Shown piece by piece: positions 2,558-32,408 of a DNA stretch of 32,408 nucleotides (the stretch's first letter is position 1; every line of letters starts with the position of its first letter). The notes under the pieces were generated by a model. That model saw only the letters and a list, made by a program, of their open reading frames with translations. It did not search any database and was not told the DNA's origin. A program made the position numbers and the translations under genes. The DNA lies in contig MGJI01000022.1 of the NCBI GenBank assembly GCA_001794195.1, positions 3,564-35,971 on the forward strand, in the 5' to 3' direction. Origin of the DNA: Candidatus Yanofskybacteria bacterium RIFCSPHIGHO2_01_FULL_44_17. GTDB lineage: Bacteria > Patescibacteriota > Minisyncoccia > 2-02-FULL-40-12 > IGHO2-01-FULL-4-A.

Positions 2558-2989
2558 CTATTCCAGCCTGAGCTTCTTGAACGTTCCGGTTTCTATTACG
2601 ACTAGATTCTTAGCATCATTCTTTATCTCACCCTCAAAGGCATCTTTCTTGAACTGGTAGAGTCTTAATCTGCGCTCCATATTTGCTCCAGTAGTCTCTT
2701 CGTTAATCATGCTCAGGCCAAGACTAATATCGACTCCGTCTTGATAAATAAACGCCACCGCAAATTCGCCGGCGCTTATCTCTGTTCTGGGCAAACCGTT
2801 TCTGACGCGATCCGGCCCCACGACCCCGATGGCTGTCACAAAAAATAAAGCTGTAAGGAAAAGACCTACTATCGAAGATAGTATCGCTTCACGAAACGAA
2901 GCTTTATTAGTCACGAGATTGGTAATACCAGCAGTGGCCAGAACGCATGAGCATACAATACTAAGTATCACTAACGTTAAAGGTTCCAT
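2558..2989 (-). CDS. Hypothetical two-TM membrane protein
   Basis: 143-aa ORF, two hydrophobic N-terminal segments; aaggagaaaa ribosome-binding-like sequence upstream. Confidence 0.7.
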   Translation of the reverse strand: MEPLTLVILSIVCSCVLATAGITNLVTNKASFREAILSSIVGLFLTALFFVTAIGVVGPDRVRNGLPRTEISAGEFAVAFIYQDGVDISLGLSMINEETTGANMERRLRLYQFKKDAFEGEIKNDAKNLVVIETGTFKKLRLE

Positions 2990-3002
2990 TTTTTCTCCTT
3001 GT

Positions 3003-4280
3003 TTATTTTAAAAGTTCTTCTACGACTTCCTTGTCAGACCAAGAAATCTTGCGGTCTCCGGCAATTGCCATTGAGGTCTCAGATCCCTTGCCTGTTATAA
3101 CCATATTATCACCTTCTTTTGCTAACGTCAAGGCATGTTTAATCGCCTCGCGACGGTCAAGAATCTTTTCATGTTTTTGTGCCTCCGGGAATCCTTTTTC
3201 AATTTGTTCTAAAATCAAAAGCGGATTCTCTTCATATGGGTCCTCATTGGTCAAAATAATTTCATCACAATATTTCGCGGCGATTTTGCCGAATTCTGGT
3301 CTTTTCCATTTATCTCTGCCGCCACCGGCAGCGCCGAGTACGCAAATCAGCTTAGGTTTTAGGTTATAGATGTTAGGTTTTAGACTATTTTTCAATGTTT
3401 CATAAACAAGCCTTAGCGAGTCAGGCGTATGCGCATAGTCGACTACCACGCTGAAACCCATGTTTGAACTAATTACTTCCATTCTACCGGGAATTAGCTC
3501 TATTGAGTTGAGCGTCTCTACTGCCCTGTCCATATCCAGATTATAGGCATGCGCCACTGCCAAAGCCGCCAAGGCGTTAAATTTATTAAACTCTCCCAGA
3601 AGTTTTAAATTGAGATCTGTAACTGGTGATTGGCTATTGGCCAAAGATATAACTCCCCATTTCTGACCGTAAGTAATTTTATGCTTAGCCGGAAAATTGG
3701 CAAACTTCTCAAAATATTGATCGTCAATATTTAATACGTGGATCCCGCGCGTTTTCAAAAAAAGCTTCTGTTTGGCCGCCATATAATTCTCAAACGAGCC
3801 GTGGCTCTCCAGGTGCTCGCGATGTAAATTAGTATAAACCGCGCAATCAATTTTTACTCCGGCAAGCCTCTGCTGAGTAATGCCTTCCGATGTGGCCTCG
3901 AGCACAATAAACCTAACGCCCGCCTTTTTAGCCCGCCACAAGAATTTCTGTAGTTTCATCCTCCCGGGCAAGGTCATTTTCAAGGTGTTGGGCCAAGTTT
4001 TATCTTTTATCTTATAGCCCAACGAGCCCACTGCCGCTATCGGTAATCCCTGATCTTCAAAAATCTTACTTATCATGTAAACCGTAGTTGATTTTCCCTT
4101 GGTGCCGGTAACGGCAATCACTCGCATTCCACGTGATGGTAAAGCAAAAATCACCGCCCCAAATATTCCCAACCCCCAATGATAAATCGGCTGAGCAGCC
4201 CGGAAAATTCGCCGAGGTATTATTTTGCGGCCTAAATTAAGTAATGCGCTTAACGCTTTATTTTCTATAAACATTAACAT
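3003..4280 (-). CDS. murE: Mur ligase family protein, MurE-like
   Basis: VIAVTGTKGKSTT P-loop, EATSEGITQQRL, TNLHREHLESHGSFENY, VVDYAHTPDSL, GKGSE motifs. Substrate specificity uncertain. Confidence 0.85.
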   Translation of the reverse strand: MLMFIENKALSALLNLGRKIIPRRIFRAAQPIYHWGLGIFGAVIFALPSRGMRVIAVTGTKGKSTTVYMISKIFEDQGLPIAAVGSLGYKIKDKTWPNTLKMTLPGRMKLQKFLWRAKKAGVRFIVLEATSEGITQQRLAGVKIDCAVYTNLHREHLESHGSFENYMAAKQKLFLKTRGIHVLNIDDQYFEKFANFPAKHKITYGQKWGVISLANSQSPVTDLNLKLLGEFNKFNALAALAVAHAYNLDMDRAVETLNSIELIPGRMEVISSNMGFSVVVDYAHTPDSLRLVYETLKNSLKPNIYNLKPKLICVLGAAGGGRDKWKRPEFGKIAAKYCDEIILTNEDPYEENPLLILEQIEKGFPEAQKHEKILDRREAIKHALTLAKEGDNMVITGKGSETSMAIAGDRKISWSDKEVVEELLK

Positions 4281-4360: not shown

Positions 4361-5041
4361 TTATGTCCTGGCTATTTCCGGGCAACCCATCTTAGTAAAA
4401 AAATACTCTTCCATCGGACGAACATTGGCTGGATCAATAAAACAGGGATAGTAAAGCTCGGATTTATCCATACTAGTAAAAATAAACGGCTTCAGCATCG
4501 CCCAGCGCATTAGATAATAAACCAAGGCGCGACCAGTACGGCCGTTGCCGTCAGCAAAAGGATGTACCGCCTCAAAATCAAGATGGAAACGCGCTATAGC
4601 TCTGACATTTTGGTCCCAGGCCTGAAAACGAGAATTGTCTTGCCACCAAACTATGCGATCAATCAAACTATTCATCAAAGCTGGTACCACCTCAGGATCA
4701 GGAAAAAAATATTTGCCTCCTTTGACGCCTACCCAACAGTCACGATACTGACCTACGTGTTTCGGCAATAACCTGGGCACATTGCGCTTCCTTTGCTGCT
4801 CGGCTGTTATTAGGCCTTGTATTTTGCAAATTACTTCTTTGGTCACATAACCGGGGACGTTGCATGATAGACGCACAAGACCTTCCAGCATTAACATAGC
4901 CCCGACATGGCCGTCTTTTTTTCTAGATTCGATCTGTTTAATTAATACTCTGGGCTCATCGTATATATTCTCAATCCAGTCAGATTCACAAATAAATTCT
5001 GCAAGATTGATAGCTGATTCGCTGGCAGTAATCTCCGGCAT
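4361..5041 (-). CDS. Fic family protein (putative AMP-transferase)
   Basis: Core motif HPFADGNGRTGR; N-terminal SDWIEN fits the (S/T)xxxE(G/N) inhibitory motif. Confidence 0.9.
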   Translation of the reverse strand: MPEITASESAINLAEFICESDWIENIYDEPRVLIKQIESRKKDGHVGAMLMLEGLVRLSCNVPGYVTKEVICKIQGLITAEQQRKRNVPRLLPKHVGQYRDCWVGVKGGKYFFPDPEVVPALMNSLIDRIVWWQDNSRFQAWDQNVRAIARFHLDFEAVHPFADGNGRTGRALVYYLMRWAMLKPFIFTSMDKSELYYPCFIDPANVRPMEEYFFTKMGCPEIART

Positions 5042-5733: not shown

Positions 5734-6663
5734 TCAAAATTTCCTAACAATCCTATAGGCCAAATACCAGAATCTTGAAACCGGCAGATCAAAAGCGCCC
5801 GGAAGTTCGACTGTCCGACCGCCCCAGCCAAGTTTGAAGCGGGTAACACCCGGCCATTTGCGTGAATCAATCCCCCACATGTCATAATGTTTTAAGTTTT
5901 TGGCTTTAAGTTGTTTTATTATGTGCCAGTGAAGTGCCTGGGGCGCCATTATGGCTCGGTGGTCATAATCCGAAGCGCCGTGAAGATAGTATCCTGTATC
6001 GCCATATATTAATATAATCGCTGCAGCGATTGGCTTGTTGTCGTATTTAGCCAAGTATAGTTTGGTCTGGAGCCCATTGTTACTTAGAAGTTTTTTGTAA
6101 TAATCACCGGCATGCGGACTGAACCTGTCCCGCTTAGCTGTTTTTTTAATTAGCTTAAGAAATACCTCCGAATCATTGCTTTCCCCTACAACTACACCGT
6201 GCTTATCAGCTACACCAATATTATAACGAGTTTTATGGTGCATGCGGCCAAGCAGCTCGTTTTCGCTTTGTTCTAGGTCAATTATAACGGTCTTGCTCGG
6301 CTGGATCTCTTTTTTTGATTTTCTCCAGCCAGAGGCTGGTCCGCCTCCGGCGGAAAATTTACCGCCACTCGCCAGCACTTGCGCCACGCTATCAATCAAT
6401 GGTTCGACTTTTATAAAAATAGATTTACGTTTTTTTCCTTCCTCGCGCAACCACTTAACAAAATTAGCCACAGGATTCTTAAGACCGCCGGTCATTTGAT
6501 TAAAATCCATCGCCGGGCCGTGCGGAATATAAAGATAATTCTTACCAAACGGCAAGTCGTACTTGATTGCCTTGGCGGATATCCCCTCCTTGTCATATTC
6601 TAAAACCTCCCGCCCCAGCGATCGTTGAAACTCCATCCATTCTTTAGATTGTAGAAAAGCCAT
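5734..6663 (-). CDS. FemAB/FemX-like peptidoglycan bridge aminoacyltransferase (GNAT-type)
   Basis: MAFLQSKEWMEFQRSLG..., MHHKTRYNIGVADKHGV, IAAAIILIYGDTGYYLHGAS, HYDMWGID. Confidence 0.88.
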   Translation of the reverse strand: MAFLQSKEWMEFQRSLGREVLEYDKEGISAKAIKYDLPFGKNYLYIPHGPAMDFNQMTGGLKNPVANFVKWLREEGKKRKSIFIKVEPLIDSVAQVLASGGKFSAGGGPASGWRKSKKEIQPSKTVIIDLEQSENELLGRMHHKTRYNIGVADKHGVVVGESNDSEVFLKLIKKTAKRDRFSPHAGDYYKKLLSNNGLQTKLYLAKYDNKPIAAAIILIYGDTGYYLHGASDYDHRAIMAPQALHWHIIKQLKAKNLKHYDMWGIDSRKWPGVTRFKLGWGGRTVELPGAFDLPVSRFWYLAYRIVRKF

Positions 6664-16968: not shown

Positions 16969-18678
16969 CTATTCTTCTTTTTTACCTAAAGTTTCATCCA
17001 ATATCCTGCGCAACCCCTCAACATCTGCTTCAACTTTAGCTCTGGGTGGCTTGGCTTGCCCTGAACCTGTTGAATGGGACTTAAGCGGACGACCGCGAAA
17101 ATCAACCGGTCCGCGTCCAGCAGCCTCAGAAAAAGACAGCGGCTTACTTGCGTAACTGGTAGACTGAGTGATACCTGATCTTACGGGCGCCGGCGATTCG
17201 TATCTAATAGGAGCTGCCCCTTGATTGCTATTCTGAGTAGGCGGCCTACCGGAGGGCCTGTCAAACCTTGACCCATCCCTACCCGTCGATCTGTCAAAAC
17301 GCTCTTCGAACCCATAGCCTCCGCCTTGATCCTGTCTGGACTGGCCAAAACCACCCCGACGAGGCGAAAAAGAATCATCAGCGCCAGAAGCAGCGACAGT
17401 AAGCTCTCGCCATTTTAAAATCGCGTCTTCTATATCTTTACGAGCCTTGGCATAGGTAGCTCGAGAGAACTCTATAACTTGCTCTCTGGGGCTTATCGGC
17501 GGCGGCGCAATGGTATCCATTGTTGTGGCCGAAAAAGACCTGGAAGAAACACCGTCAATCATTAATTTCAAGTATATTTGTCGTTTACCAAGATTAACGA
17601 TGTCGGTCGCCATAAACTCCGGCGACATTTCCTTTTCAAGCAGTTCCGCATCTTCGGCACCGACACGGAAGGACACAATTGTTCCAACATTACCAAAAAC
17701 TGCATCCCTTACACCCTCTTCCATCTGAGTAACATATTGATGGGCAATGACCAGGCTTAAATTGAATTTTCTAGCCTCTGACAAAATATTAGCGAAAGAA
17801 GCTGTCGCAAAATTTTGAAACTCGTCAACAATAAGAACAAAATCCTTCCTTTCTGCCCTGGGAATATCAACACGAGACATGGCGGCTATTTGAATCTTGG
17901 TAATCAATAAGCCGCCGAGCAGTCTTGAGGCATCTTCTCCGACTCTGCCCTTAGAAATATTAATAAGCAATATCTTTTGTTCGTCCATTGCTTGTCTTAT
18001 GTCAAAACTGGACTTCTTCTGACCGACTATATTCCTAATAACCACGTTAGAAACAAACTGTCCGATCTTATTTTGAATGGCGGCAGTAGCGTCCATGCGA
18101 TACTTAGGATCCCATTTTTCAAATTCTTGCGTCCAAAAAGCCTTACACTCCGGATCTTTGATTTGTCCAACCACCCATTTCCGATACTCCTTCTCCGCCA
18201 TCATGCGGTTAATTCCAAGCAAGGTTGAATCCGGCACCTCTAAAAGGGCCAAGATAGTATAGTTGAGAATATACTCCATTCTGGCCGACCAAAGATCTAT
18301 CCAAAGCTTCTTAAAAACTGCCATGATACCATCGGCCACAAGGTGCCTCTTGTCTGGGTCGACGGACTCTAAAACATTAAACGCTATCGGATATTCCAAG
18401 TCGGCAGGGTTAACGTAAATAACGTCCTTAATTCTTTCCGGCGGAATATAGTCAAGCAGATCCTCCACCGGATCTCCATGCGGATCAACAAAGGCTAACC
18501 CACGACCATCTCGAATATCCTGAATGGCAATGTTTTTAAGAAGCTCTGATTTGCCCATGCCGGTCTTACCGATGATATACATATGGCGCCGACGATCATC
18601 CATCTTGATGCCAAAAGTCACCTTCTTGTTTCGAAAGTTGGTTTCACCAAATAAAACTACTGGGTTTTCTGCAGACAT
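16969..18678 (-). CDS. VirD4/TraG/HerA-like P-loop ATPase with disordered C-terminal tail
   Basis: YIIGKTGMGKSELLKNIAIQDI; FVDPHGDPVEDLLDYIP; VLIVDEFQNFATASFANILSEARKFNLSLVIAHQY; G/R/S/P-rich C-terminus. Confidence 0.9.
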   Translation of the reverse strand: MSAENPVVLFGETNFRNKKVTFGIKMDDRRRHMYIIGKTGMGKSELLKNIAIQDIRDGRGLAFVDPHGDPVEDLLDYIPPERIKDVIYVNPADLEYPIAFNVLESVDPDKRHLVADGIMAVFKKLWIDLWSARMEYILNYTILALLEVPDSTLLGINRMMAEKEYRKWVVGQIKDPECKAFWTQEFEKWDPKYRMDATAAIQNKIGQFVSNVVIRNIVGQKKSSFDIRQAMDEQKILLINISKGRVGEDASRLLGGLLITKIQIAAMSRVDIPRAERKDFVLIVDEFQNFATASFANILSEARKFNLSLVIAHQYVTQMEEGVRDAVFGNVGTIVSFRVGAEDAELLEKEMSPEFMATDIVNLGKRQIYLKLMIDGVSSRSFSATTMDTIAPPPISPREQVIEFSRATYAKARKDIEDAILKWRELTVAASGADDSFSPRRGGFGQSRQDQGGGYGFEERFDRSTGRDGSRFDRPSGRPPTQNSNQGAAPIRYESPAPVRSGITQSTSYASKPLSFSEAAGRGPVDFRGRPLKSHSTGSGQAKPPRAKVEADVEGLRRILDETLGKKEE

Positions 18679-18679
18679 A

Positions 18680-18748
18680 GGTTTTAGGTTTTAGGTTTTA
18701 GGTTTTAGGACTTTAATCTAACACCTAAAACCCAACACCTATCACCTA
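18680..18748. repeat. Heptamer tandem repeat (GGTTTTA)x4 followed by inverted heptamers (ACACCTA/AAACCCA/ACACCTA/TCACCTA)
   Basis: Directly visible in the intergenic region between the ATPase and its upstream gene. Confidence 0.9.
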
Positions 18749-20023
18749 TCTTATTGGTAGTCCAGCCGGCGGTTGGCCTTTCTTCGATTCTACGCGCGGA
18801 AAGGCTGGCGCCTTAACCCCAATTCCCGGCAAGTGAAAAAGGGTCGCCAATTCTTCAACGCCAAGAATAACGAATTGATCTACAAACTTTCGCTGCCTGT
18901 AGTTTCTGTAAAGATACCACTTCCTTAAAAATTCCTGCTTCTTGTAGCCAAATCCCTTGTCGGATGGAAAAAGCCAGGGGAACCATCCCTTGGCTAGGGT
19001 CCAGGTCCTTTTATTGGGTCTGAATGAATTTAAATTATTTAGATAGAACTGCTTGAAGTAGCCGGTTACAGCCGCAACGCGCGACATACGAAAGCGGTCC
19101 TTGCGTGCAAGATAAATAAACCTATAGCCTGACTTGAATCCAAGCTGAGCAATTTTATTCTCAACTTGCTCCAAGACAAATTTCTGACCACCAGTCAGCT
19201 TCATTAAAGAAAACTCCTCCCTCTTTTTTTCTTCAGGAGCTGGTACGCCCCCCGGCAATAACTGATCTATAAAATCAACAGCCTTGCCCAAAGCATCGCG
19301 TTCAATTTTAGGCTCCCTACCGGTCAGCTTATCTACTTCGGCTTGTGCTTCTTTGGCCCAGGCGCCACCCGTTGCCCTGATAACTAGTTGGACCCATATA
19401 TGCTCGCCGGGCTCAAGAGAGCTCATGGTTTCGGCTAGTGGAGCAAGGGGGTCAGTACGTTTGAATTCATCTTTGCCAGATTCCTCTTCGAAGAAAGGAT
19501 AGGTTTTTATTGGATAGGCATCTGGCTTGGAAAATATCAACTCTGTGCCCCAAAGTTCATACTCGTCGTTAGGCAAATATTCCGGTAAAGAATTAACGTA
19601 ATCTTCAGCAACCTTGATCTCGGCATCCGGGTATTGCGCAAAAACTTGTGCCTCTACCAGATCGCGCAAGCGTTCTGGGGTTCGAATATAAAAACCCGTC
19701 TCACCGCCATTGCCCACTATTTCAAATGAGAACCAAGGCTGAACTTGGCCTTCAAAAAATCTCTCTTTCCAAGTTTTTGAAGTGATATACCCAGCGTGTA
19801 GACCGGAAAAGATATTTTCAGCTATTTTAGGGCTTTTTTGAACGTCCGGAGGTGGTTTGATCTCAAGCAAAACCCACTTCAGAGAAAGAAGGTATTGTTG
19901 TTGTTTATACGAGAGCCATGATTCATAGGCACTAAAAAACAGCAAAAACGGGACGAATGTCCACCAGTATTGCTCCAGGTAATAAAAAGCGGTTTTTAGT
20001 GGACTGAGAATGTCGAGAAACAA
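18746..20023 (-). CDS. Conserved membrane protein adjacent to the VirD4/HerA-like ATPase
   Basis: 425-aa ORF with N-terminal TM (YYLEQYWWTFVPFLLFFSAYESWLSYKQQQYLLSLKWVLLEIKPP). Confidence 0.8.
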   Translation of the reverse strand: MFLDILSPLKTAFYYLEQYWWTFVPFLLFFSAYESWLSYKQQQYLLSLKWVLLEIKPPPDVQKSPKIAENIFSGLHAGYITSKTWKERFFEGQVQPWFSFEIVGNGGETGFYIRTPERLRDLVEAQVFAQYPDAEIKVAEDYVNSLPEYLPNDEYELWGTELIFSKPDAYPIKTYPFFEEESGKDEFKRTDPLAPLAETMSSLEPGEHIWVQLVIRATGGAWAKEAQAEVDKLTGREPKIERDALGKAVDFIDQLLPGGVPAPEEKKREEFSLMKLTGGQKFVLEQVENKIAQLGFKSGYRFIYLARKDRFRMSRVAAVTGYFKQFYLNNLNSFRPNKRTWTLAKGWFPWLFPSDKGFGYKKQEFLRKWYLYRNYRQRKFVDQFVILGVEELATLFHLPGIGVKAPAFPRVESKKGQPPAGLPIR

Positions 20024-21332: not shown

Positions 21333-22235
21333 TTAAGATTTCTTCTTTCTGCTTAGCCATACAAGTATGGGTGCGGCCACAAAAAATGATGAGTACGCCC
21401 CGCAAAATATTCCTAGAATTAAAGCTAGCGCGAAGTACTTAATAGACTCTCCACCGAAGAAATAAATTGAAACCAGCGACAACAGGGTGGCGAATGTCGT
21501 ATTAAGAGAGCGCACCAACGTTTGCATAATGCTCTTATGCACAAGTTCACCGAAATTATCTTTATGGCCAAGCCTCAGTACGTTCTCTCTTACTCTGTCA
21601 AAAACAACTACTGAATCAGATAACGAATAGCCCAGTATAGTAAGCGCCGCAGCTACAAAAACCGCGGTTACTTCTATGCCATAGTAATGCCCAAGCCAAG
21701 CAAAAATACCGGTCGGTATAAGAATATCATGAATCAACGCGGCAATCGCTGATAAACTTACCGCCCATGGCGAAAGGACTCTTGATAGTTTCCTGAAAAC
21801 AAAAGCAATATAAAAAGTTACAGCCAAAAGTAAAATAATTATTGAGGTTATACTCTTACGACGTAACTCACTGCCGATTGTCGGCCCGATAGAATCAAAA
21901 CGTTTTTCTATCACCTGGCCAAACTTTTCCGCTACTTGCTGAAGAATAGCTTGGTGTGCAGGCTCACTGATATCGTTGAGCCTGACGATAGCATCCTTGT
22001 CCCCAGCCAAGTTAACGCTCACATTTGTAACCTCGCTAACTGCGCTTACGGCATGCTCTAATTCAGTGGCAGTGGGCCTGGCAGCCTCAAAAACAAGTTC
22101 AATTACTGAGCCTCCCTTAAAATCAATGCCATATTGTAGACCAAAAATAGCAATAAATATTATCGCCAGAACAGTCAGCGCCACTGAAATCCAAAACATA
22201 ATTTTATAAAAATTGCGCATATTTAGAATAGCCAC
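21333..22235 (-). CDS. secF: Protein translocase subunit SecF
   Basis: GLQYGIDFKGGSVIELVF; ALTILGYSLSDSVVVFDRVREN; QTLVRSLNTTFATLLSLVSIYFFGG. Confidence 0.95.
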   Translation of the reverse strand: MAILNMRNFYKIMFWISVALTVLAIIFIAIFGLQYGIDFKGGSVIELVFEAARPTATELEHAVSAVSEVTNVSVNLAGDKDAIVRLNDISEPAHQAILQQVAEKFGQVIEKRFDSIGPTIGSELRRKSITSIIILLLAVTFYIAFVFRKLSRVLSPWAVSLSAIAALIHDILIPTGIFAWLGHYYGIEVTAVFVAAALTILGYSLSDSVVVFDRVRENVLRLGHKDNFGELVHKSIMQTLVRSLNTTFATLLSLVSIYFFGGESIKYFALALILGIFCGAYSSFFVAAPILVWLSRKKKS

Positions 22236-23575
22236 TTCTTATTTTCAAACTTACGTCCTGTAAATAAATTTAAGAATGTTCTGGCGATAACCGTGGCCGT
22301 GAAAAGACTCATAAGTACTCCGATACCCAGTGTCAACGCAAAACCCTTAACAACTGACGTTGAAAATATATACAAAACCAAGGCGCCTAGAATCGTTGTT
22401 ATATGACTATCCCTGATTGAAAACCAAGCGCGCTCAAATCCCTCATGAACGGCCTGCCGCAAAGGTTTACCAGCCTTCAACTCTTCGCGCAAGCGGGCAA
22501 AAATTAAAACATTAGCATCAACAGCAATGCCTAAGGACAATATGAATCCGGCGATACCGGCCAGCGTAATGGTAACGGGAATTACTTTATAGATAGACAA
22601 AACTACCGCCATATAAATCAAAAGTGCAAAAACCGAAATTGCGCCCGGCAAACGGTAATAAATTATCATAAAAGCCGCCACTAAGAACAGGCCGTAAAGA
22701 CCCGCCTTGAGAGAACTACTCAAAGAGTCTTGGCCCAGAGACGGACCTATGGTCTGCTGTGATACCAAAGTAATCGGCACTGGCAAGGCTCCGGCATTAA
22801 GTCGGTTAGCAAGATCTTTGGCTTCTTTAATACTGAACCCGCCCGATATAACCGCACGTCCATCAGGAATTTCGCTTTGTACCACAGGTGCACTTATCGC
22901 AACACCATCGAGATAAATCGCCACCAGCTTGCCAAGATTGCGCTTGGTTATATCGCCAAAAAGTTTCGCACCCTCATCGTTCAACTCAAGAGAGACCTGG
23001 GGCTGAGAAGTATTCTGGTCAAAAATCAGCTGTGAACGCTTGAGATAACGACCGGTTAGGCCGGTAGACATGAAATATGGATCCTCGATTAACTGCTGAT
23101 CCTTGGCCTGTGCGTCAAGTATTTTTTTTGACTCATCTTCTGGGCGCTGTTCTTTAAATTCTAGGAAAGGAGTTTGGCCAATCAGTTGTATCGCCTGATT
23201 AACGTCGCTTACGCCAGCTAACTCAACGACTAGACGATCCTTACCCTCTATCTGTACCAACGGCTCAGCTACGCCGAAAAGATTAACCCTGCGCTCAATA
23301 ACATCCCTCACTCCTGACATGGCTTCATCAGAACTCTGATCACCGCTACCGGACAGATCAGCCTGGTAGACCAGGTGAGTACCGCCGAGAAGATCCAGGC
23401 CAAGCCTGAACGGTGGAACATTGAAAAAATGAGGAATCCTAAACTTTGAGTTTTGAATTTTGAGTTTTGAATTTACGATATCGGCTCCCCTGTCCCACCC
23501 CTGCGGGTAAACAAAAATCGCCAGGAACAAAGCGACGATTAAAATAATTAAGGGAGTGAATTTGTTGTTACGCAT
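22223..23575 (-). CDS. secD: Protein translocase subunit SecD
   Basis: FRLGLDLLGGTHLVYQAD; VVELAGVSDVNQA; LGIAVDANVLIFARLREEL. Start at internal Met 23575 (MRNNKFTPLIILIVALFLAIFVYPQG). Confidence 0.95.
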   Translation of the reverse strand: MRNNKFTPLIILIVALFLAIFVYPQGWDRGADIVNSKLKIQNSKFRIPHFFNVPPFRLGLDLLGGTHLVYQADLSGSGDQSSDEAMSGVRDVIERRVNLFGVAEPLVQIEGKDRLVVELAGVSDVNQAIQLIGQTPFLEFKEQRPEDESKKILDAQAKDQQLIEDPYFMSTGLTGRYLKRSQLIFDQNTSQPQVSLELNDEGAKLFGDITKRNLGKLVAIYLDGVAISAPVVQSEIPDGRAVISGGFSIKEAKDLANRLNAGALPVPITLVSQQTIGPSLGQDSLSSSLKAGLYGLFLVAAFMIIYYRLPGAISVFALLIYMAVVLSIYKVIPVTITLAGIAGFILSLGIAVDANVLIFARLREELKAGKPLRQAVHEGFERAWFSIRDSHITTILGALVLYIFSTSVVKGFALTLGIGVLMSLFTATVIARTFLNLFTGRKFENKKWLF

Positions 23576-23736
23576 TAAAAAGTATAATAAAATAACACAC
23601 CTATAAAAGCAAGGCCATATGTGCCCGCCTAGGACAATATTACCTTTTTGAGAACTTCGCCTCGCCCCAGATTTTACAATTTTGTGATAAAAAAACAGCG
23701 AGGGGTTTCGCTGCATGAGATCATCGAACTAATTTT

Positions 23737-24222
23737 TTACCAAAGCATAGTAACCGTAAGAACAGCGTGTGTAATCTCATTTGTAGCGCCGGCAGAGCTA
23801 AGTGATAAAACAAATGTATTATTGTTTGAAGGATTTAGTAGAGCTATTAGATAGCCTCCGGTCGACCATGCTACCCGATCCCAGCTGTCGCGTGGTTCAT
23901 TAGGATAGGCGGTACCGTGTGTAGTATTCGTAGCAGAATCATATACGAATGTATCGTGCGCGACCAAACCGGTTGAAGTTACCCTTCCTCCTGGTCCGGA
24001 TATATTAGAAAAACTAGCCATAACAAACACTGGCTCGTTACTTACAGGTAACGGTATGACTGTATCTACCGCAGAGTTCAATATGAAGGTCCGTTTTTGG
24101 CGATGGCTTCCAACATTATCAGAATTTCCTTGGGCAAAGGCAACGTTTTTGTTGGAAAATTGAAGTAATCCTATTAATAGTACCGCTAGAAAAAACAAGA
24201 TAATTGAAAGTTTTTTTCTCAT
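23737..24222 (-). CDS. Secreted hypothetical protein
   Basis: 161 aa with clear N-terminal signal sequence MRKKLSIILFFLAVLLIGLLQF...AFAQ. Confidence 0.65.
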   Translation of the reverse strand: MRKKLSIILFFLAVLLIGLLQFSNKNVAFAQGNSDNVGSHRQKRTFILNSAVDTVIPLPVSNEPVFVMASFSNISGPGGRVTSTGLVAHDTFVYDSATNTTHGTAYPNEPRDSWDRVAWSTGGYLIALLNPSNNNTFVLSLSSAGATNEITHAVLTVTMLW

Positions 24223-24358
24223 TTCTTCTCCTTGTTCTTATTTTAAATGACCAGCAAATCTGAAAGACCTTGTAATATAAAGCCTTCCAGCGTTAATATC
24301 CTAGCAAATCTTCGTAAATTGATCAGGCCCTACTTTATATGATTCCACCAAAATCGCG

Positions 24359-25720
24359 TTACTTATTACACCTTAATTCTTCTTCGGCCTTTTTAATTAA
24401 TTCGTTGGATTCAGTTATAAGTTGTATGCCTTCGCTCCGTCTACTGTTAACAAGATAGTATAAGCCCAAATTATAATTAGCATTTATGCTTTTTGGAGAA
24501 TCTTTGGCCATGCTAGTAACTAATACTTCCTCGTTTAACCAAATGCGATTACGCTTTACGATCGTTGTTCCATAAATCAATAATAGTGCCGCTAACAAAA
24601 TATAAATTAATGGCCTGTATCTTTTTGATAATAAATAATTAATCCCAAAAGCTACTATAATAACAAGCCCAGCTGATGCGGCGTAAACCAGTCGATCGGC
24701 CATAATTGTCCCGATCGGGAAAATTAAGTTTGAAATCGGAAAATATACTGCCACAAAAAAGGCTGCGCCAAATGCCAGCGGTCCTCCACAGCTTTTGCGT
24801 CTAAAAATTAGGCAAATCATGGCTAATATTAACATCAAGCCCACCAACATCACCAAATCTAATGGGGAAGTAATGGGTACTGTCTGGGCATAGGCGTAAT
24901 CGGCCGATAAGTGAAGTGGAAAAAATATTTTCCATATATACACTGCCGCCAACTTAAGCGAAGTAAGTATTCGAGTTGACTGACAAACCGTGATAAGGGG
25001 GTTAGCAATGAGTCCGTTATCATTGGCCAGAAAGTTATTGCCCAGAGCAGCCCACCTTAAAACTATGTAGGCGACTCCGGAAACCATGAAAGGAACTATT
25101 TTTTTAAACCAACTCGCAAAATTATATTTTTCCGTAGCGAATAGCCAAAAGATAATAAACGGGAATATTCCTATCGCAACCTCTTTAGATAAAACCGCCA
25201 AAAGGAAAGCAAGCCCGGAAAGCCAATACTTTTTCAAATAAAAAGCCAATAAGATTAGCAGGCCAAAGAAAAGGGCTAACAAATCAGAACGGCCAGAGAT
25301 GTAAGTTACTGCCTCGACATGAATTGGCAAAAACAAAAACAAGCCATATGAAATATAAGCCAGCCGCCTAGATTTAAAAACTCGGATTACGAGAATAAAC
25401 AAAAGCCAGGTATTTAGGGAGTGGATCAATATATTTACAACGTGAAACAGGGTCGGCTTATCGCTTACGGCAAGATTGAGAACATAAGATATCTGGGTCA
25501 GCGGTCGATATAGCCCGGTAGTAGATTGCCACAGATAATACGGTCTTAAAAATTCCATGGGTATGGTCCCCATGCTTCTCTCCTGTGGGCTTGGGAAAAT
25601 TGCCCGACCATCATCCAATATAAAACTTCCTCCGATGCCGTTGCCGAATAATAAAAAAGTTAGGGCAACGGTAGCTAAAAGAGTGGGTATTTCAAACTTT
25701 TTTAGTTTTGCTGACCACAT
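24359..25720 (-). CDS. Multi-TM GT-C glycosyltransferase, TMTC/O-mannosyltransferase-like, with TPR-like C-terminus
   Basis: FILDDGRAIF; TGLYRPLTQISYVLN; HVVNILIHSLNTWLLF; PIHVEAVTYISGRSDLLALFF; LSKEVAIGIFPF; C-term SINANYNLGLYYLVNSRRSEGIQ. Confidence 0.78.
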   Translation of the reverse strand: MWSAKLKKFEIPTLLATVALTFLLFGNGIGGSFILDDGRAIFPSPQERSMGTIPMEFLRPYYLWQSTTGLYRPLTQISYVLNLAVSDKPTLFHVVNILIHSLNTWLLFILVIRVFKSRRLAYISYGLFLFLPIHVEAVTYISGRSDLLALFFGLLILLAFYLKKYWLSGLAFLLAVLSKEVAIGIFPFIIFWLFATEKYNFASWFKKIVPFMVSGVAYIVLRWAALGNNFLANDNGLIANPLITVCQSTRILTSLKLAAVYIWKIFFPLHLSADYAYAQTVPITSPLDLVMLVGLMLILAMICLIFRRKSCGGPLAFGAAFFVAVYFPISNLIFPIGTIMADRLVYAASAGLVIIVAFGINYLLSKRYRPLIYILLAALLLIYGTTIVKRNRIWLNEEVLVTSMAKDSPKSINANYNLGLYYLVNSRRSEGIQLITESNELIKKAEEELRCNK

Positions 25721-25752
25721 AAACTTATTGCCCGAACAACTGTCTTTCGTTA

Positions 25753-27207
25753 TTATTCTGGCAGTTTCTCCCTCGAAACCCTGGGCTTCTGCTTATCCAA
25801 CCACTCCTTTATGAAAAGCGTGGCGCGGACGTCGTCTTCGTTGTATTTGACGATTTTGTTCATGATTTTTTGATCGCCGGTTTTGAGCCAGTCGTTATAC
25901 CAAACAACAGACTCGGCTCCGCCGGCGTCCTCCGCCTCCCACTTGAATCCAAGATATTTAGCCACATCTTTGAGACTGTAGAAATATATGGGCAAAACCG
26001 CAGCCTCAATGAATTTCCAATGCAAATCAATGGTATTATTCTTGAACTTATCGTCAAGTGCTATCGAAATGCCGTATTTGTTGCCCAGCCGCCTGAAAAC
26101 CTCTCTTTCATAATATGAGTAGTGATAAATTACAAAATTTTCCAAAGACTCAAGGAAATCCAAAAACTCCCGCCAAACCCTGGCTTCATCTTCTTTATCT
26201 TTGGCCCAAAAATACTTATATTCCGCTTCTTTCCCCGGCTTCTTAATAATCATCCCCAGTAAGTAATCAATGCCATCGGTAGGATCAGACTCAATATCAA
26301 AATATATTTCATTCTTAACTTCAGGAAATTCGCTTTTCTTGAGAATCCTCGGCTCATTAGAAATCAAAACTTGCGCCTGATTATAAAAACGTAAAATCTT
26401 ATCAAACGGCCAATCCTCAAGTCGGTAGCGCAGATTATCAAGATCGGCAGACGCAAGATCCTTAACCGTATGAATGCCCAGATCGTAAAATCTACGCTGA
26501 TCATTCTGGCTCAGTTTATAGACGAGCGAAATATCATCACATTCTTTAGCCTCTTCGGTACAAAGCGAATACCACGGGGACTGCTTGCAGCCGCTCTTGA
26601 GAAACGGGGGCGGCTTTTCGCCAGCCAACACCTGTTCAATCCTATCTTTTGTAAGATGGAAATAGTCAAGAAAGTCATCCACCATAAAAGATCTTTCCTC
26701 GCCATCGGAATTGATTATATAAGCATCTCGCGGCAAAACGCCCTGTAACCGTTCAAGAATTAAACTATAAAAAACTAACTGAAACTTATATTCATCCCTT
26801 ATTTCTTTACCAGTTTTTATGTCGTAGACAACGTAGTAGTGATCGCCGAAGTTAGACTTCATTCCCTTCTCAACCGGTCTTGCCTCAAGCAGGTCGGGAA
26901 TACCAACCCAATTTTGGTCCATTAAAACGCCATGATAGATATTCTTGCCCTGTTTCATCATTTCCATCGTTGTCAGGAAGGCTTCATCGAGATCGCGCAT
27001 AAGTTCCGGCTTAATCTCCTCAAACTTGCGGCCCTTGATCATTTCACGCTCATGCTTGAGTCCACCCTTATGTATCATCTGGATCAACGGCGGTATCTCG
27101 CCCTTCTTTGTCTGGTCGCCATAGATGTCATACCAAATCCAATGTGGACACTGGAAAAATTTATAAAAATGCTCCCCTGTTAATTTTGGTTTTTTATTTT
27201 CTGGCAT
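25753..27207 (-). CDS. TM0106-type RecB-like nuclease with C-terminal RNase H-like domain
   Basis: YYVVYDIKTGKEIRDEYKFQLVFYSLIL (PD-(D/E)XK and QxxxY); NEIYFDIESDPTDGIDYLLGMII; VIYHYSYYEREVFRRLG; KYNEDDVRAT. Confidence 0.85.
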   Translation of the reverse strand: MPENKKPKLTGEHFYKFFQCPHWIWYDIYGDQTKKGEIPPLIQMIHKGGLKHEREMIKGRKFEEIKPELMRDLDEAFLTTMEMMKQGKNIYHGVLMDQNWVGIPDLLEARPVEKGMKSNFGDHYYVVYDIKTGKEIRDEYKFQLVFYSLILERLQGVLPRDAYIINSDGEERSFMVDDFLDYFHLTKDRIEQVLAGEKPPPFLKSGCKQSPWYSLCTEEAKECDDISLVYKLSQNDQRRFYDLGIHTVKDLASADLDNLRYRLEDWPFDKILRFYNQAQVLISNEPRILKKSEFPEVKNEIYFDIESDPTDGIDYLLGMIIKKPGKEAEYKYFWAKDKEDEARVWREFLDFLESLENFVIYHYSYYEREVFRRLGNKYGISIALDDKFKNNTIDLHWKFIEAAVLPIYFYSLKDVAKYLGFKWEAEDAGGAESVVWYNDWLKTGDQKIMNKIVKYNEDDVRATLFIKEWLDKQKPRVSREKLPE

Positions 27208-27270
27208 AAGCAATAGTTGATATGACCTCAGTATATAATTAATTCTGCCGAAAAGCTAATAACTAATTTT

Positions 27271-27306
27271 TGTCGCTCCTAGATACGATCGTATTTAAAA
27301 GCGACA
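27271..27306. repeat. Imperfect palindrome 3' of the Cas2/PaaX-like gene
   Basis: TGTCGCTCCTAGATACGATCGTATTTAAAAGCGACA; shares ATACGATCGTAT core and GTCG/CGAC ends with 27837-27878. Confidence 0.9.
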
Positions 27307-27825
27307 TTAGCTAAAATATCTTTTGACAGCTGCCTCTCTCCCGCCCAAAGACTCCGCGACAACAACACAGACGTACTTACTAATCGCCAATAACCTTACC
27401 AACTCTTCAATGTCTTTCTCACAGGCATAACAAGTTACATAAACACTCTTTTGCAGTTGGTAGCATTCCCACTCATTCAGTTTGCTGCGAAGTAAGTCTC
27501 TGGCAGCCCTCTTTTCTTCCGGAATATCAAAAATAATTACGCGCCACCGACCGTCACGTTTTTTATTTTCTATTTTAAGTTCCTCCAGTTTGGCAAAATT
27601 GATATATTTATATCCCTTCTCCGTAATAACTGCTTCGACCCCATTTGAATACTTGATAAAACCACGTCGCTTTAGTGCGTAAAGTTTGCGACTAAGAACA
27701 GTTTTATTCGGAAAAAGTTTAGATCTTATTAGGTTTTGCTTAAATGTACTTTTAGGCAAACCACCATAAAGTCGGCGTTCAATGGCATCAAGAATACCGT
27801 AATTTGGATATTTGCTGTACCTCAT
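27307..27825 (-). CDS. HTH protein with Cas2/PaaX C-terminal-like ferredoxin-fold domain
   Basis: N-term winged-helix-like (TVLSRKLYALKRRGFIKYSNGVEAVITEKGYKYI); C-term GRWRVIIFDIPEEKRAARDLLRSKLNEWECYQLQKSVYVTCYACEKDIEELVRLL, Cas2-like pattern. Confidence 0.8.
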   Translation of the reverse strand: MRYSKYPNYGILDAIERRLYGGLPKSTFKQNLIRSKLFPNKTVLSRKLYALKRRGFIKYSNGVEAVITEKGYKYINFAKLEELKIENKKRDGRWRVIIFDIPEEKRAARDLLRSKLNEWECYQLQKSVYVTCYACEKDIEELVRLLAISKYVCVVVAESLGGREAAVKRYFS

Positions 27826-27836
27826 TAAATCTCACG

Positions 27837-27878
27837 ATTTGTCGTCTTTAAATACGATCGTATTTAAAGACGACAAAT
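27837..27878. promoter_or_regulatory. Perfect 42-nt palindrome 5' of the Cas2/PaaX-like gene (candidate operator)
   Basis: ATTTGTCGTCTTTAAATACGATCGTATTTAAAGACGACAAAT is its own reverse complement. Confidence 0.9.
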
Positions 27879-27913
27879 AATTTAAATTATCCCACACCGC
27901 CTAACCCAAATCG

Positions 27914-28612
27914 TCACTCATTACGATGGCTGGCCCAAGCACAATGCTGGCACTCTGCGCCTGACTGTGGTGGGGTATCTGAACGGGCTAATTGAACGGC
28001 ATTGGCAAATAGATCGTGAATATAAGTCGGGTCGGTTGTTACCTCGCGAATTATACCTCGAAATGGCAAACGACCCCTAAAACCATCGGTTTTATCTACC
28101 TGATAAAAAACAAAAAAGGCCTTGCCTGCAATTTTATAACCGGACTTATCCAGTATGTGAGTATAGGTATCCATCTGCATTTGATAATCATCATAAACTG
28201 AAATTTCTTTGGCACCAGATGACTTATAATCAATCACCGCAAGCGAGCCATCATTGAACTCCAGCATATCATCAACCGCACCGAACAATGTCGCGTCGAG
28301 TTCTTCGTCGTGATATTTAAGGCCTTCGAAATTATTGCGCCATTTCTGAAGTTGGACGTGATCAGGATAAAGATGCGCCTCAGACATGCCATCGTGATCA
28401 ACTAAGACAGGATGCATCTCTCCCCTTTCACGGTACCCATCAAACTCCGCCTTCAGCAATTGGTCTACTGCGATTGATAATGTATAAGGATAGCCCTGGG
28501 GACGGCCAATACCTTGGTGCTTATACATCCAAAAACAACGAGGGCATTCCTTCATAAGCTGAATATTCGCGCGCGATATTTTTAACGGTTTTGAGGTACG
28601 TACTATTGACAT
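27914..28612 (-). CDS. Cas4/RecB-like PD-(D/E)XK nuclease
   Basis: CPRCFWMYK; ATLFGAVDDMLEFNDGSLAVIDYKSSG; YDDYQMQMDTYTHIL; C-terminal CQHCAWA cysteines. Confidence 0.82.
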   Translation of the reverse strand: MSIVRTSKPLKISRANIQLMKECPRCFWMYKHQGIGRPQGYPYTLSIAVDQLLKAEFDGYRERGEMHPVLVDHDGMSEAHLYPDHVQLQKWRNNFEGLKYHDEELDATLFGAVDDMLEFNDGSLAVIDYKSSGAKEISVYDDYQMQMDTYTHILDKSGYKIAGKAFFVFYQVDKTDGFRGRLPFRGIIREVTTDPTYIHDLFANAVQLARSDTPPQSGAECQHCAWASHRNE

Positions 28613-28634
28613 TGGTTATATAATTTGCTATAAT
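28606..28634 (+). promoter_or_regulatory. Perfect-consensus sigma-70 type promoter
   Basis: TTGACA (28606-28611), 17-nt spacer, TATAAT (28629-28634) on the + strand, divergent from the Cas4-like gene. Confidence 0.65.
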
Positions 28635-28640
28635 TAATAG

Positions 28641-28732
28641 TACGTTGAGAGCAACCATCGGGCTAGCCGAAATGGCCGAAGTGGTTGGGGAGGGCAATCG
28701 AGCAATCGGCACCCCTCCGCCTCAGCGTTTTT
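28641..28732 (+). ncRNA. Putative small RNA with tRNA-Ser-like D-arm sequence
   Basis: Non-coding interval after the consensus promoter; CAACC/GGTTG and GGAGGG(28689-28694)/CCCTCC(28713-28718) helices; ends in CGCCTCAGCGTTTTT. Confidence 0.4.
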
Positions 28733-28757
28733 ATTTCCTTAAAACTAATTCTATTTT

Positions 28758-29435
28758 CTATTTACTAATTTCTATTTTATTTACTGCATCCCCTTGTTTA
28801 ATTTTCAACACCACATCCATACCCTTCACCACCTTGCCGAAAACCGTGTGCTTGCCGTAGAGATGCTGCTGCGGCTTGGTGGTAACAATGAAGAACTGGC
28901 TGCCGTTGGTATTCGGTCCAGCATTGGCCATGGCTATATAGCCCGGATCCACCGGTAGCGACTTGAGGGAACTACTGTACTTGTAACCCTGCGCTTCATA
29001 TTGGGCGATGAGTTCGTCTGTGGCACCAAGTGATTTTAAATTAATCTCATCTTCAAACTGATAACCGGGTCCGCCAGTACCTACGCGAGGATCGTCGGTT
29101 TTAGATAATGGGTCACCGCCCTGGATCATGAAATCATCAATAACTCGATGAAATTTAGTTCCATCATAAAAACCAGCCTCAGCCAGCTTAACAAAGTTAG
29201 CTACGGTCTTAGGGGCAACCTCTGAATAAAGCTCCAGTTCAATATCACCGCGAGCAGTTTCCATCGTGACCTTAACTATATCCGGCATAGTTTCTTGAGA
29301 ATTAACGGTGGCCACAGGAGTCGGAGATGATTCAGGAGTTTTATCTAAAGCAGAATTATTTCTCTGCTGAAAATAAAAATAACCGCCGAAACCTATAACC
29401 AACGCAATAAAAGTTAGAATTAAAATCTTAAGCAT
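28758..29435 (-). CDS. Cyclophilin-type peptidyl-prolyl cis-trans isomerase, membrane-anchored
   Basis: [73 protein letters not shown]. Confidence 0.95.
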
Positions 29436-29439
29436 AAAA

Positions 29440-29814
29440 CTACTCTAGCAAATTATCTAGTTCTTGCAAAACATCATCGGGTATTTGAATCGGCCTACCT
29501 GCCGGGCTGATCCCAGGATAACGCCAAGCAGAAATTATTCTTACTGCCGGGATCTGGAATTTAGAATTTATGGTTTGGCTGCGTAAATTTTGATCTATCT
29601 GCTGATACATAACCCAGACCTCCTGGGGTTTTTTCTTATTGCTGGTCGGCTGCATAACGGCAACTGTTCTCTCGGCCACGCCGTCTTCTTTACGCTTGGG
29701 AAACCTGACTATTCTTTTAATCAAGCCCTCCGATATTCCATAATAAACCATCTTGCCTTTCACGTGATTAGTCCAGCGATACTTGTCATCATTTTTAGGA
29801 GGCTTGAACTGCAT
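29440..29814 (-). CDS. Hypothetical protein, possibly DUF4258-like
   Basis: 124-aa ORF overlapping the upstream NDT-NUDIX gene by 20 nt; [23 protein letters not shown] pattern. Confidence 0.6.
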
Positions 29815-30733
29815 GTTTGTTTTTTAGATAAAGCTCCAATGTGTGTCTAGCGTTTGGCTCTATGTCTAGGTCGCGCAAGGCTGCATCAGCCGGCATCCAG
29901 TCATAGCCTTCGGCTTCATCGTTTAGCTTGGCCCTCTTGCTACCGACACGAACAATTTTATCAACAAAAATATGATTGGTGCCGGATATATAGTAGCCGG
30001 ATTTTTTTATTTGATCAAAAGTACAAATATGGTCGCCCACCCTGGCGGCCAAACCAGTCTCTTCTTTTATCTCTCTGAGCAGGGCATGATCAAGACGTTC
30101 GTTGCGCCTTAACTTACCACCAATTATTGAATATCGCCCGCCCCACTTGTGGGTTTTTACAAGTAAAACCTGTTTCTCATGACCGCGCCTGGGAACATAT
30201 TCTATAATCCCGCCCACGGCAATAACCGAGCCCGGAACCATCAGGCTTTCCCACAGCCGGTGTATGGCTGACTCGCTGCGCTTAACCTGCGGCAATGGCA
30301 AGCACCCTTTAGCCTTAATAAACTCAATTAGAAGTTCAGGTTTCCATATAGAATTTTGGTGAACGTATGCCGGATGGTCTTGCGGTTTCTCCATAAAGAA
30401 GCATCTCGTATTTGAAATTTGAGCAATACCCAGTTCGTAAGAGACGCTTCTGCCAATGTAGCCTTCCGGATTAACAAAATAGCTAAAGCCATTTTCGCCA
30501 AGACGCTTGAGATTTCTCAAATACAAAAGCTCAATCATCCTCGGATCTTTTTCGGTGTCGCTTTCCAACATAGCAAACCCTCCATTACTGTTGGTTATAT
30601 CGGAAAACTCAGGCGCTATAACCTCAATTCCGGCAGCACTAAAAAGCCTGTGTGTTTTCTTTATTTCTTCAAAGTGTTTGCCAAAACTTCCATGCAAAAC
30701 ACATCTGAATTTTGGGTTTAATTCGGTACGCAT
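29795..30733 (-). CDS. Nucleoside 2-deoxyribosyltransferase-like domain fused to NUDIX hydrolase
   Basis: N-term RCVLHGSFGKHFEEI...SYFVNPEGYIGRSVSYELGIAQ; C-term GGKLRRNERLDHALLREIKEETGL (Nudix box). Confidence 0.82.
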   Translation of the reverse strand: MRTELNPKFRCVLHGSFGKHFEEIKKTHRLFSAAGIEVIAPEFSDITNSNGGFAMLESDTEKDPRMIELLYLRNLKRLGENGFSYFVNPEGYIGRSVSYELGIAQISNTRCFFMEKPQDHPAYVHQNSIWKPELLIEFIKAKGCLPLPQVKRSESAIHRLWESLMVPGSVIAVGGIIEYVPRRGHEKQVLLVKTHKWGGRYSIIGGKLRRNERLDHALLREIKEETGLAARVGDHICTFDQIKKSGYYISGTNHIFVDKIVRVGSKRAKLNDEAEGYDWMPADAALRDLDIEPNARHTLELYLKNKHAVQAS

Positions 30734-30737
30734 ATGG

Positions 30738-31295
30738 CTACCCGAGAGAATACACTATTCTGCCGTTTTCGAAAACATGGAAGGAGTTGGTCTCTTCGGA
30801 AACCGTAAAAACGGTCGTGTCTTTAAAAACATGCGAAGATGTGATGGCAAAAAGGTGTCGAGAATGAACCTTCTGTGAAAAACCGAATTGTTCAGACAGA
30901 TCAGCGAATTTGCCGGGGTTAACCCGTTCTGCCACAGATCGCGGCCTTAAGCCCTCCAGGATTACACCAGAGTGCACCACTTCACCATTGCCATCTATTA
31001 ATATCGCGCCGTCGAAGCCAACCGTGGACTCAACCTCGCGGTACCAATCGGCGTGGTTTTCGATATCGGCGACATTGATATGATGCTTAACAAAAATATC
31101 CTGAGTGCTGTCAGAAATATCGGTATAATCCTGCCATTGATCATGCCAACCCAGCACAATAAAAAGACCAAAGTTTTTCTGATTTTTCATCAAATTTAAA
31201 ACCAACTCAGCGGTTTTCATTTTCAAAGAAATTGGCAAATTAACCGCCGACTTCTTAAAAATTTCTATTAATTCAAAAATTGCTTTTTCCGTCAT
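30738..31295 (-). CDS. DisA_N / diadenylate cyclase (DAC)-like protein, divergent active site
   Basis: FDGAILIDGNGEVVHSGVILEGL...SRHLFAITSSHVFKDTTVFTVSEETNSFHVFENGRIVYS matches the DGA...(T/S)RHR...VSEETG...xNG layout of DAC domains. Confidence 0.75.
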   Translation of the reverse strand: MTEKAIFELIEIFKKSAVNLPISLKMKTAELVLNLMKNQKNFGLFIVLGWHDQWQDYTDISDSTQDIFVKHHINVADIENHADWYREVESTVGFDGAILIDGNGEVVHSGVILEGLRPRSVAERVNPGKFADLSEQFGFSQKVHSRHLFAITSSHVFKDTTVFTVSEETNSFHVFENGRIVYSLG

Positions 31296-31747
31296 TACCT
31301 TTTAGAACGACCAGAAACCAACCAAGAGCTGGATTGGATTTTACCTCCATGGCCGACGTTGAATACCATTTTGCATCTTAGGCCGTTACAAACGGCAACT
31401 TCTGGAATATTATCGGCAGTACGGTCTCCGCCGTTGGCAAAAATACTAGGTTTAAGTTTTTTTAGCTCAGCGCAAACACTCATATCGTCGCTGTTCGGAC
31501 CATGGCCGGTAATGATAACGTGGTCAACCACCGCCAGTCCCGCTATCACTTCTTTGCGCTCGTCTTCACGCATAAAAACATAGCCCTTTTTCTTTTTGAG
31601 CCAGTTGTCATTATTGAGAATTACTACCAGCTTATCGCCCAATTTCTTAGCCTCCTTAAAAAGCCTGACGTGACCAGCATGAAGCGGATCCATTCCGCCT
31701 GATACCGCTACGACGATTTCCTTTTTCTTTTTTATTCGTTTTTTCAT
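31295..31747 (-). CDS. Cytidylyltransferase-like nucleotidyltransferase (HxGH superfamily; RfaE/TagD-like)
   Basis: VVAVSGGMDPLHAGHVRLFKEAKKLGDKLVVILNNDNW; FANGGDRT. Confidence 0.85.
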   Translation of the reverse strand: MKKRIKKKKEIVVAVSGGMDPLHAGHVRLFKEAKKLGDKLVVILNNDNWLKKKKGYVFMREDERKEVIAGLAVVDHVIITGHGPNSDDMSVCAELKKLKPSIFANGGDRTADNIPEVAVCNGLRCKMVFNVGHGGKIQSSSWLVSGRSKR

Positions 31748-31831
31748 TTACTTCTCTAATTCTAGCGCAATTAGACCGCACTTTCTAATTTTTTCCTTAT
31801 AGCCAGGGAAGGTATGGCAGAGCTTGCGCAG

Positions 31832-32098
31832 TTAGCTTTCTGATTTTACGTTTGGATTGATTTCTTTAACTTTGTACTTTTTTAGTAATGCCTCTATAGT
31901 TTTAAAGATTTTCGCCTTAGCTATGAGCTTAGTAAACTTGTTTTTACTGCAAACTAATATGACGAGATCTCCAGCCTTAATGTTTCGGTATTTAGCCGTT
32001 GCCGCCCGAGTCTCTACTTTCTTTTTGCCACCGCGAATGGCATCAAAAATATCCCGATTTACCGCCTTGAATCTTAATGTATATAATTTATTTTTCAT
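31832..32098 (-). CDS. Small ASCH-like domain protein
   Basis: YTLRFKAVNRDIFDAIRGGKKKVETRAATAKYRNIKAGDLVILVCSKNKF. Confidence 0.65.
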   Translation of the reverse strand: MKNKLYTLRFKAVNRDIFDAIRGGKKKVETRAATAKYRNIKAGDLVILVCSKNKFTKLIAKAKIFKTIEALLKKYKVKEINPNVKSES

Positions 32099-32101
32099 AT
32101 C

Positions 32102-32308
32102 TTAACGCTGCTTTTTGTTTTTCTTTAAAAGTTTAAAAATAGCTCCTAGTACTATCATCAGCATGCCCAGACCTGCCGCGATTCCGAAAAGGTTAGCAAT
32201 ATTGCGTAACTCTCCGAACGTAATAACTGACGGTATCACAGCCACAAACCAGCCGATCCCACCGACCATAAAAATTATTACACCCCATAAAAGAATTTTA
32301 TTTCCCAT
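32102..32308 (-). CDS. Hypothetical two-TM protein
   Basis: 68-aa ORF, two hydrophobic helices, basic C-terminus. Confidence 0.55.
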   Translation of the reverse strand: MGNKILLWGVIIFMVGGIGWFVAVIPSVITFGELRNIANLFGIAAGLGMLMIVLGAIFKLLKKNKKQR

Positions 32309-32350
32309 GGCATTTTTACTTTTTATTCACTATCCCGCACAGACCTTCCT

Positions 32351-32407
32351 TTATTTTTCAGCCATAGCTTCTTGAAGAATGGCATTGTCAGTGTTGATAG
32401 CATAAAT
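32351..32407 (-). CDS. C-terminal end of an unidentified CDS entering from the right edge
   Basis: Open minus frame ...IYAINTDNAILQEAMAEK-stop. Confidence 0.35.
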   Translation of the reverse strand: MYAINTDNAILQEAMAEK

Positions 32408-32408
32408 G

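Follow-up and report, generated by a model that had tools for sequence, protein, structure and literature searches.

A Cas2-like gene between matched palindromes is a probable minimal mobile unit of Patescibacteria

We analyzed a Cas2-like gene and the two palindromes that bracket it in a 32,408-nucleotide (nt) stretch of contig MGJI01000022.1, here called the window, from the 674-kb genome of Candidatus Yanofskybacteria bacterium RIFCSPHIGHO2_01_FULL_44_17 (Patescibacteria). The block of palindrome, gene, and palindrome, about 650 bp in all, is probably a minimal, selfish mobile unit that encodes a protein recognizing the unit's own palindromic ends and that probably passes through a hairpin state. 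The gene lies on the minus strand at positions 27307 to 27825, with its stop codon at 27307 to 27309, and encodes 172 amino acids. The upstream (5') terminal palindrome (27837 to 27878) is a perfect, zero-loop palindrome of 42 nt that begins 11 bp ahead of the ATG, and the downstream (3') one (27271 to 27306) is imperfect, with 15 of 18 pairs matched over 36 nt and a degenerate outer arm; its last base adjoins the stop codon. Both have the core CGATCG, and they are 82% identical across 38 nt. A sequence-only reading of this DNA had described the two related palindromes around the gene, and their coordinates were confirmed. Within the 32-kb window, no zero-loop palindrome other than the perfect one scores at least 13, and the strand of the perfect one folds with a z score of -10 (computed as DNA).

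The AlphaFold model of the protein (mean pLDDT 89) showed a winged helix (residues ~1 to 86) followed by a PaaX_M/Cas2-like ferredoxin domain (residues ~88 to 172), and the nearest solved structures were those of Escherichia coli PaaX and of Cas2 proteins, with PaaX the closest over the full length. The Cas2/PaaX-like assignment already made from the sequence was borne out by a match to the Cas2-like Pfam family PaaX_M (PF20803; E = 2e-21), which was matched by 116 of 116 family members. The window protein scored 22.0 bits (E = 2e-4) against CRISPR_Cas2 (PF09827), for which the curated cut-off is 23.8 bits, and 97 of the 116 members matched that family at E ≤0.01. Residues D91, F99, D100, Q125, and S127 are invariant in the alignment of 116 rows.

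The association of palindromes with this gene is far beyond chance. We compared the ends of 124 distinct copies for which 300 bp was available on each side, counting as a match at least 65% identity in the opposite flank. A strong zero-loop palindrome stood on at least one side of 71 copies, and 61 of these 71 had a matching palindrome in the opposite flank, versus 2% when the flanks of other elements served as a control. An independent sample drawn from other lineages, 20 copies in all, gave 12 with a strong palindrome and 11 of the 12 matched, with a control value of 1.8%. The earlier reading had stated that it would be refuted if the palindromes bore no relation to the gene family elsewhere, and these matched ends speak otherwise. 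Zero-loop palindromes scoring at least 13 numbered 51 in the 31.7 kb beside the genes and 23 in ~634 kb of related loci elsewhere, a density ~44 times higher beside the gene. The median distance between palindrome centers was 644 bp, and symmetry extended 21 nt from the center, beyond which it fell to background.

Each element has a palindrome sequence of its own, within a common plan. Position 3 from the center is C or G in ~95% of cases, so that the center is nearly always CNNNNG, and the core types include CGATCG, CTATAG, CGTACG, CATATG, CGGCCG, and others. Both ends carried the identical core type in 49 of 64 elements. When core types were placed on the protein tree, 15 changes were needed, versus an expected mean of 24.9 and minimum of 21, which shows that the core type is coinherited with the protein.

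Several comparisons support the mobility of the unit well. DNA corresponding to positions 27208 to 27913 is missing from the orthologous slot in four relatives, three of the same genus (G001, G002, and G003) and one family member (G006), in which the flanking genes lie ~20 to 45 bp apart with neither the gene nor the palindromes between them. Looking for empty sites was a check proposed with the sequence-only reading, which had also held that palindromes absent from orthologous loci would count against it; the palindromes were indeed absent from these loci, but the gene was absent as well, as a mobile unit predicts. Gene and palindromes are gained or lost together. A second copy in the window genome, on contig C21 between gatC and ligA, is 29% identical to the first, has its own, different palindrome pair, and is likewise absent at its spot in G001, G002, G003, and G006. 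The site of a third copy, in G003, is empty in G002. Copies that are 74 to 75% identical occur in unrelated surroundings both within one genome (L200 and L202, 75% identical with no homology between their flanks) and in different species (L059 and L060), and in both pairs the resemblance extends no farther than the outer palindrome edges. In several shared neighborhoods, the unit stands at differing sites or in reversed orientation. Short dispersed matches that came up in these comparisons were rejected as low-complexity AGTTTCT repeats.

The two arms of an end also evolve together. Positions 1 to 4 and 10 to 15 are conserved between ends and positions 5 to 9 are variable, and we counted 63 symmetric double changes between ends, versus a mean of 20 and a maximum of 33 in 1,000 shuffles, along with 187 changes in one arm alone. 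Paired changes of this kind are characteristic of a base-paired stem or of copying from one arm to the other. Since the spacer at positions 5 to 9 changes yet stays symmetric, it goes beyond what an operator read as a double helix alone would need. This compensatory evolution of the ends is a direct and testable hint of a hairpin in the cycle.

The main rival to mobility is a PaaX/PadR-type autoregulator, in which the protein would bind both palindromes as operators, perhaps looping the DNA, solitary palindromes would form its regulon, and the gene would have spread only by ordinary horizontal transfer and loss. The winged helix and the closeness to PaaX over the full length fit such a regulator, as do the solitary palindromes at C7:13740 and C29:2217, which match that of the window element, and the motif TATAAT, which occurs in 10 of 64 upstream palindromes versus 4 of 64 downstream ones. 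However, a second matched palindrome right after the stop codon is a general feature, the neighboring genes share no common function, the spacer at positions 5 to 9 differs between ends but stays symmetric, and related units in unrelated places stop at their palindromes. We therefore consider this explanation unlikely, though the strongest of the alternatives. The sequence-only reading had offered both operators and the termini of a minimal mobile unit encoding a Cas2-like protein; the second of these now has the empty sites, the second element, the scattered units, and the general anatomy behind it, and the first is less favored. Operator binding by the Cas2-like protein may nevertheless be part of the mechanism.

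A homing-type gene is a poorer explanation still, and we give it little weight. Here the protein would cut solitary palindromes, and repair templated by the occupied locus would copy the gene in, leaving the target on both sides. Cognate solitary palindromes do exist, the unit does lie between two copies of one site, and Cas2-like domains are nucleases in some cases, but the empty sites in relatives have no palindrome, and arms of 20 nt are short for recombination. An RNA-hairpin role, with the palindromes as two-way transcription terminators insulating the gene, fits the compensatory changes and the strong folding of the perfect palindrome's strand, but is very improbable given arms rich in A+T, a CNNNNG core that is conserved as sequence and whose type tracks the protein, no match to an Rfam family, and matched pairs private to each gene, which terminators would not be.

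Several observations weigh against a mobile unit that recognizes its own ends. The nearest full-length fold, PaaX, is a transcription factor, and 53 of the 124 copies lack a strong palindrome in both flanks, though weaker ones are present in some. We saw no recent identical copies that would reveal ongoing movement, and neither a target duplication nor an exact junction was readable in comparisons among congeners that are ~70 to 85% identical in DNA, of which the best pair (G001 versus G003) holds other DNA in the slot. The inserted DNA extends 20 to 60 bp past the palindromes, and in some cases several genomes share a copy in one slot, suggesting that it was inherited or that the site is preferred.

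If the block is a mobile unit as proposed, its sole protein, in which a winged helix precedes a Cas2-like domain, would recognize the core CNNNNG plus boxes about 10 to 16 nt out; in a dimer, the winged helices may read the boxes and the Cas2-like dimer may hold or cut the core. That the protein catalyzes the movement, and how it would do so, is inferred. Each end may fold as a hairpin during movement, as a single strand or a cruciform, with one arm copied from the other. Such copying would leave each end perfectly symmetric though the two ends differ, and an intermediate with hairpin ends would restore the perfect palindromes in each cycle. Solitary palindromes would then be scars or targets, a scar being a single palindrome that could remain behind. 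A bolder proposal, which we hold only tentatively and with somewhat less than even confidence, is that these units form a new class of minimal element with a winged-helix Cas2-like protein as the sole enzyme and perfect palindromic ends regenerated via hairpins, possibly a stand-alone DNA-mobilizing Cas2 fold outside CRISPR. To our knowledge, transposing enzymes belong to few folds (DDE, HUH, the tyrosine and serine recombinases, and the Cas1 integrases). If the proposal is true, a widespread mobile family relying on a Cas2-like protein would add a fold to these and give Cas2 a life outside CRISPR, in a mobile unit of Patescibacteria whose gene would otherwise be labeled a PaaX-type regulator or Cas2.

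The family of ~650-base mobile units is large, patchily distributed among the very small Patescibacteria genomes, and apparently undescribed; in the open-access literature, with subscription papers and other preprints outside the scope, we found nothing linking PaaX to Patescibacteria or Parcubacteria, or to Cas2 and mobile elements. Copies were present in 52 of 95 relatives (at most 13 per genome) and in 68 of 192 genomes sampled across the phylum (1 to 11 each). When 84,980 genomes were scanned, at least 552 relatives emerged. Of the 80 that were retained, 78 belong to Patescibacteria or unnamed bacterial bins, and the 2 with other labels may be misbinned. One genome's copies are dispersed across the whole protein tree. 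The neighbors of the units fall into 375 varied clusters, many of them housekeeping genes (recR, proS, gatC, ligA, and map, named by eye). With the single protein as query, the viral scan yielded no relative, and plasmids and deposited phages yielded none with one query; a profile scan gave one viral relative, at positions 2982 to 3432 of an IMG/VR contig (L116), beside what look like replication-protein, helicase, and HNH-protein genes (functions assigned by eye). This contig is a possible vehicle for transfer of the gene.

The window unit lies between two host genes on the minus strand, both outside the unit: a TM0106-family RecB-like nuclease with an RNase_H_2 domain (25753 to 27213) and a PD-(D/E)XK (RecB/Cas4-like) nuclease (27914 to 28612). 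A site-specific tie to these two Cas4-like neighbors was considered and dropped, because the genes adjoin without the element in the four relatives. The RecB-like/TM0106 slot also holds an element at L050, L048, and L071, possibly as a hot spot or by inheritance. Elsewhere, a site occupied by an element in G003 carries in G001 a pilin-like small gene and other hairpins (L247; G001:C13:2191-2967), which marks it as a variable site. One copy in G014 (L038, 4919 to 5345) has an in-frame stop between its palindromes and, ~1 kb off at 6372, a third palindrome cognate to them; L056 also has a third, at 4415.

Solitary palindromes were located with a pattern search and within stretches sampled from the genome. 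Where the window genome has its solitary palindrome C7:13740, the orthologous position in G003 bears a perfect palindrome of 46 nt with a different core type (L181:2731). Solitary palindromes at L174:1738 in G003 and L004:1488 in the window genome (C29) occupy the same spot in these two congeners, downstream of an apparent phosphoglycerate kinase gene, with sequences that differ yet are symmetric. Further solitary palindromes resemble elements of a congener. A dispersed hairpin of another kind, CCCAGCACCACTT...AAGTGGTGCTGGG, occurs at three places in the stretches sampled from the window genome (L262:1720, L267:13408, and L267:17718), with a conserved stem and a changing loop. At 18677 to 18749, the window contains degenerate tandem TAGGTTTTAGG repeats that form an inverted pair, and similar repeats of the AGTTTCT type are scattered in the genus.

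Compared with known systems, the unit resembles three and differs from each. It shares with the Cas2 of CRISPR-Cas systems the ferredoxin-like domain, in which the Asp ending the first strand (D100) and the QxS motif (QKS in the family) line up. Here, however, a winged helix is fused to that domain and the gene stands alone between palindromes, with no Cas1 among its ten neighbors (the search for Cas1 went no farther into the genome) and no repeat array in the window from 22000 to 32408, which argues that the protein is not a CRISPR Cas2. PaaX, the phenylacetate repressor of E. coli (PDB 8a39), likewise has a winged helix followed by a Cas2-like PaaX_M domain and is the nearest full-length fold, but it has ~305 amino acids versus 172 here. 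No paa operon accompanies the gene, and neither the N- nor the C-terminal domain of PaaX is among the Pfam families matched by the 116 members. The window family is moreover mobile and multicopy, with the Cas2-like D100 and QxS. The score of the window protein against the PaaX equivalog TIGR02277, 21.5 bits, is far below the cut-off of 264.55, and the protein is therefore not PaaX proper. REP/RAYT and IS200/IS605 elements have hundreds of palindromes with loops and an HUH enzyme, whereas the palindromes here are few, perfect, and zero-loop, the protein is Cas2/PaaX-like, and no Y1 (HUH) transposase family was matched by any of the 116 members. With no HUH domain found, the unit is not a member of REP/RAYT, but its anatomy is alike: a small single gene, flanking palindromes, and solitary palindromes elsewhere in the genome.
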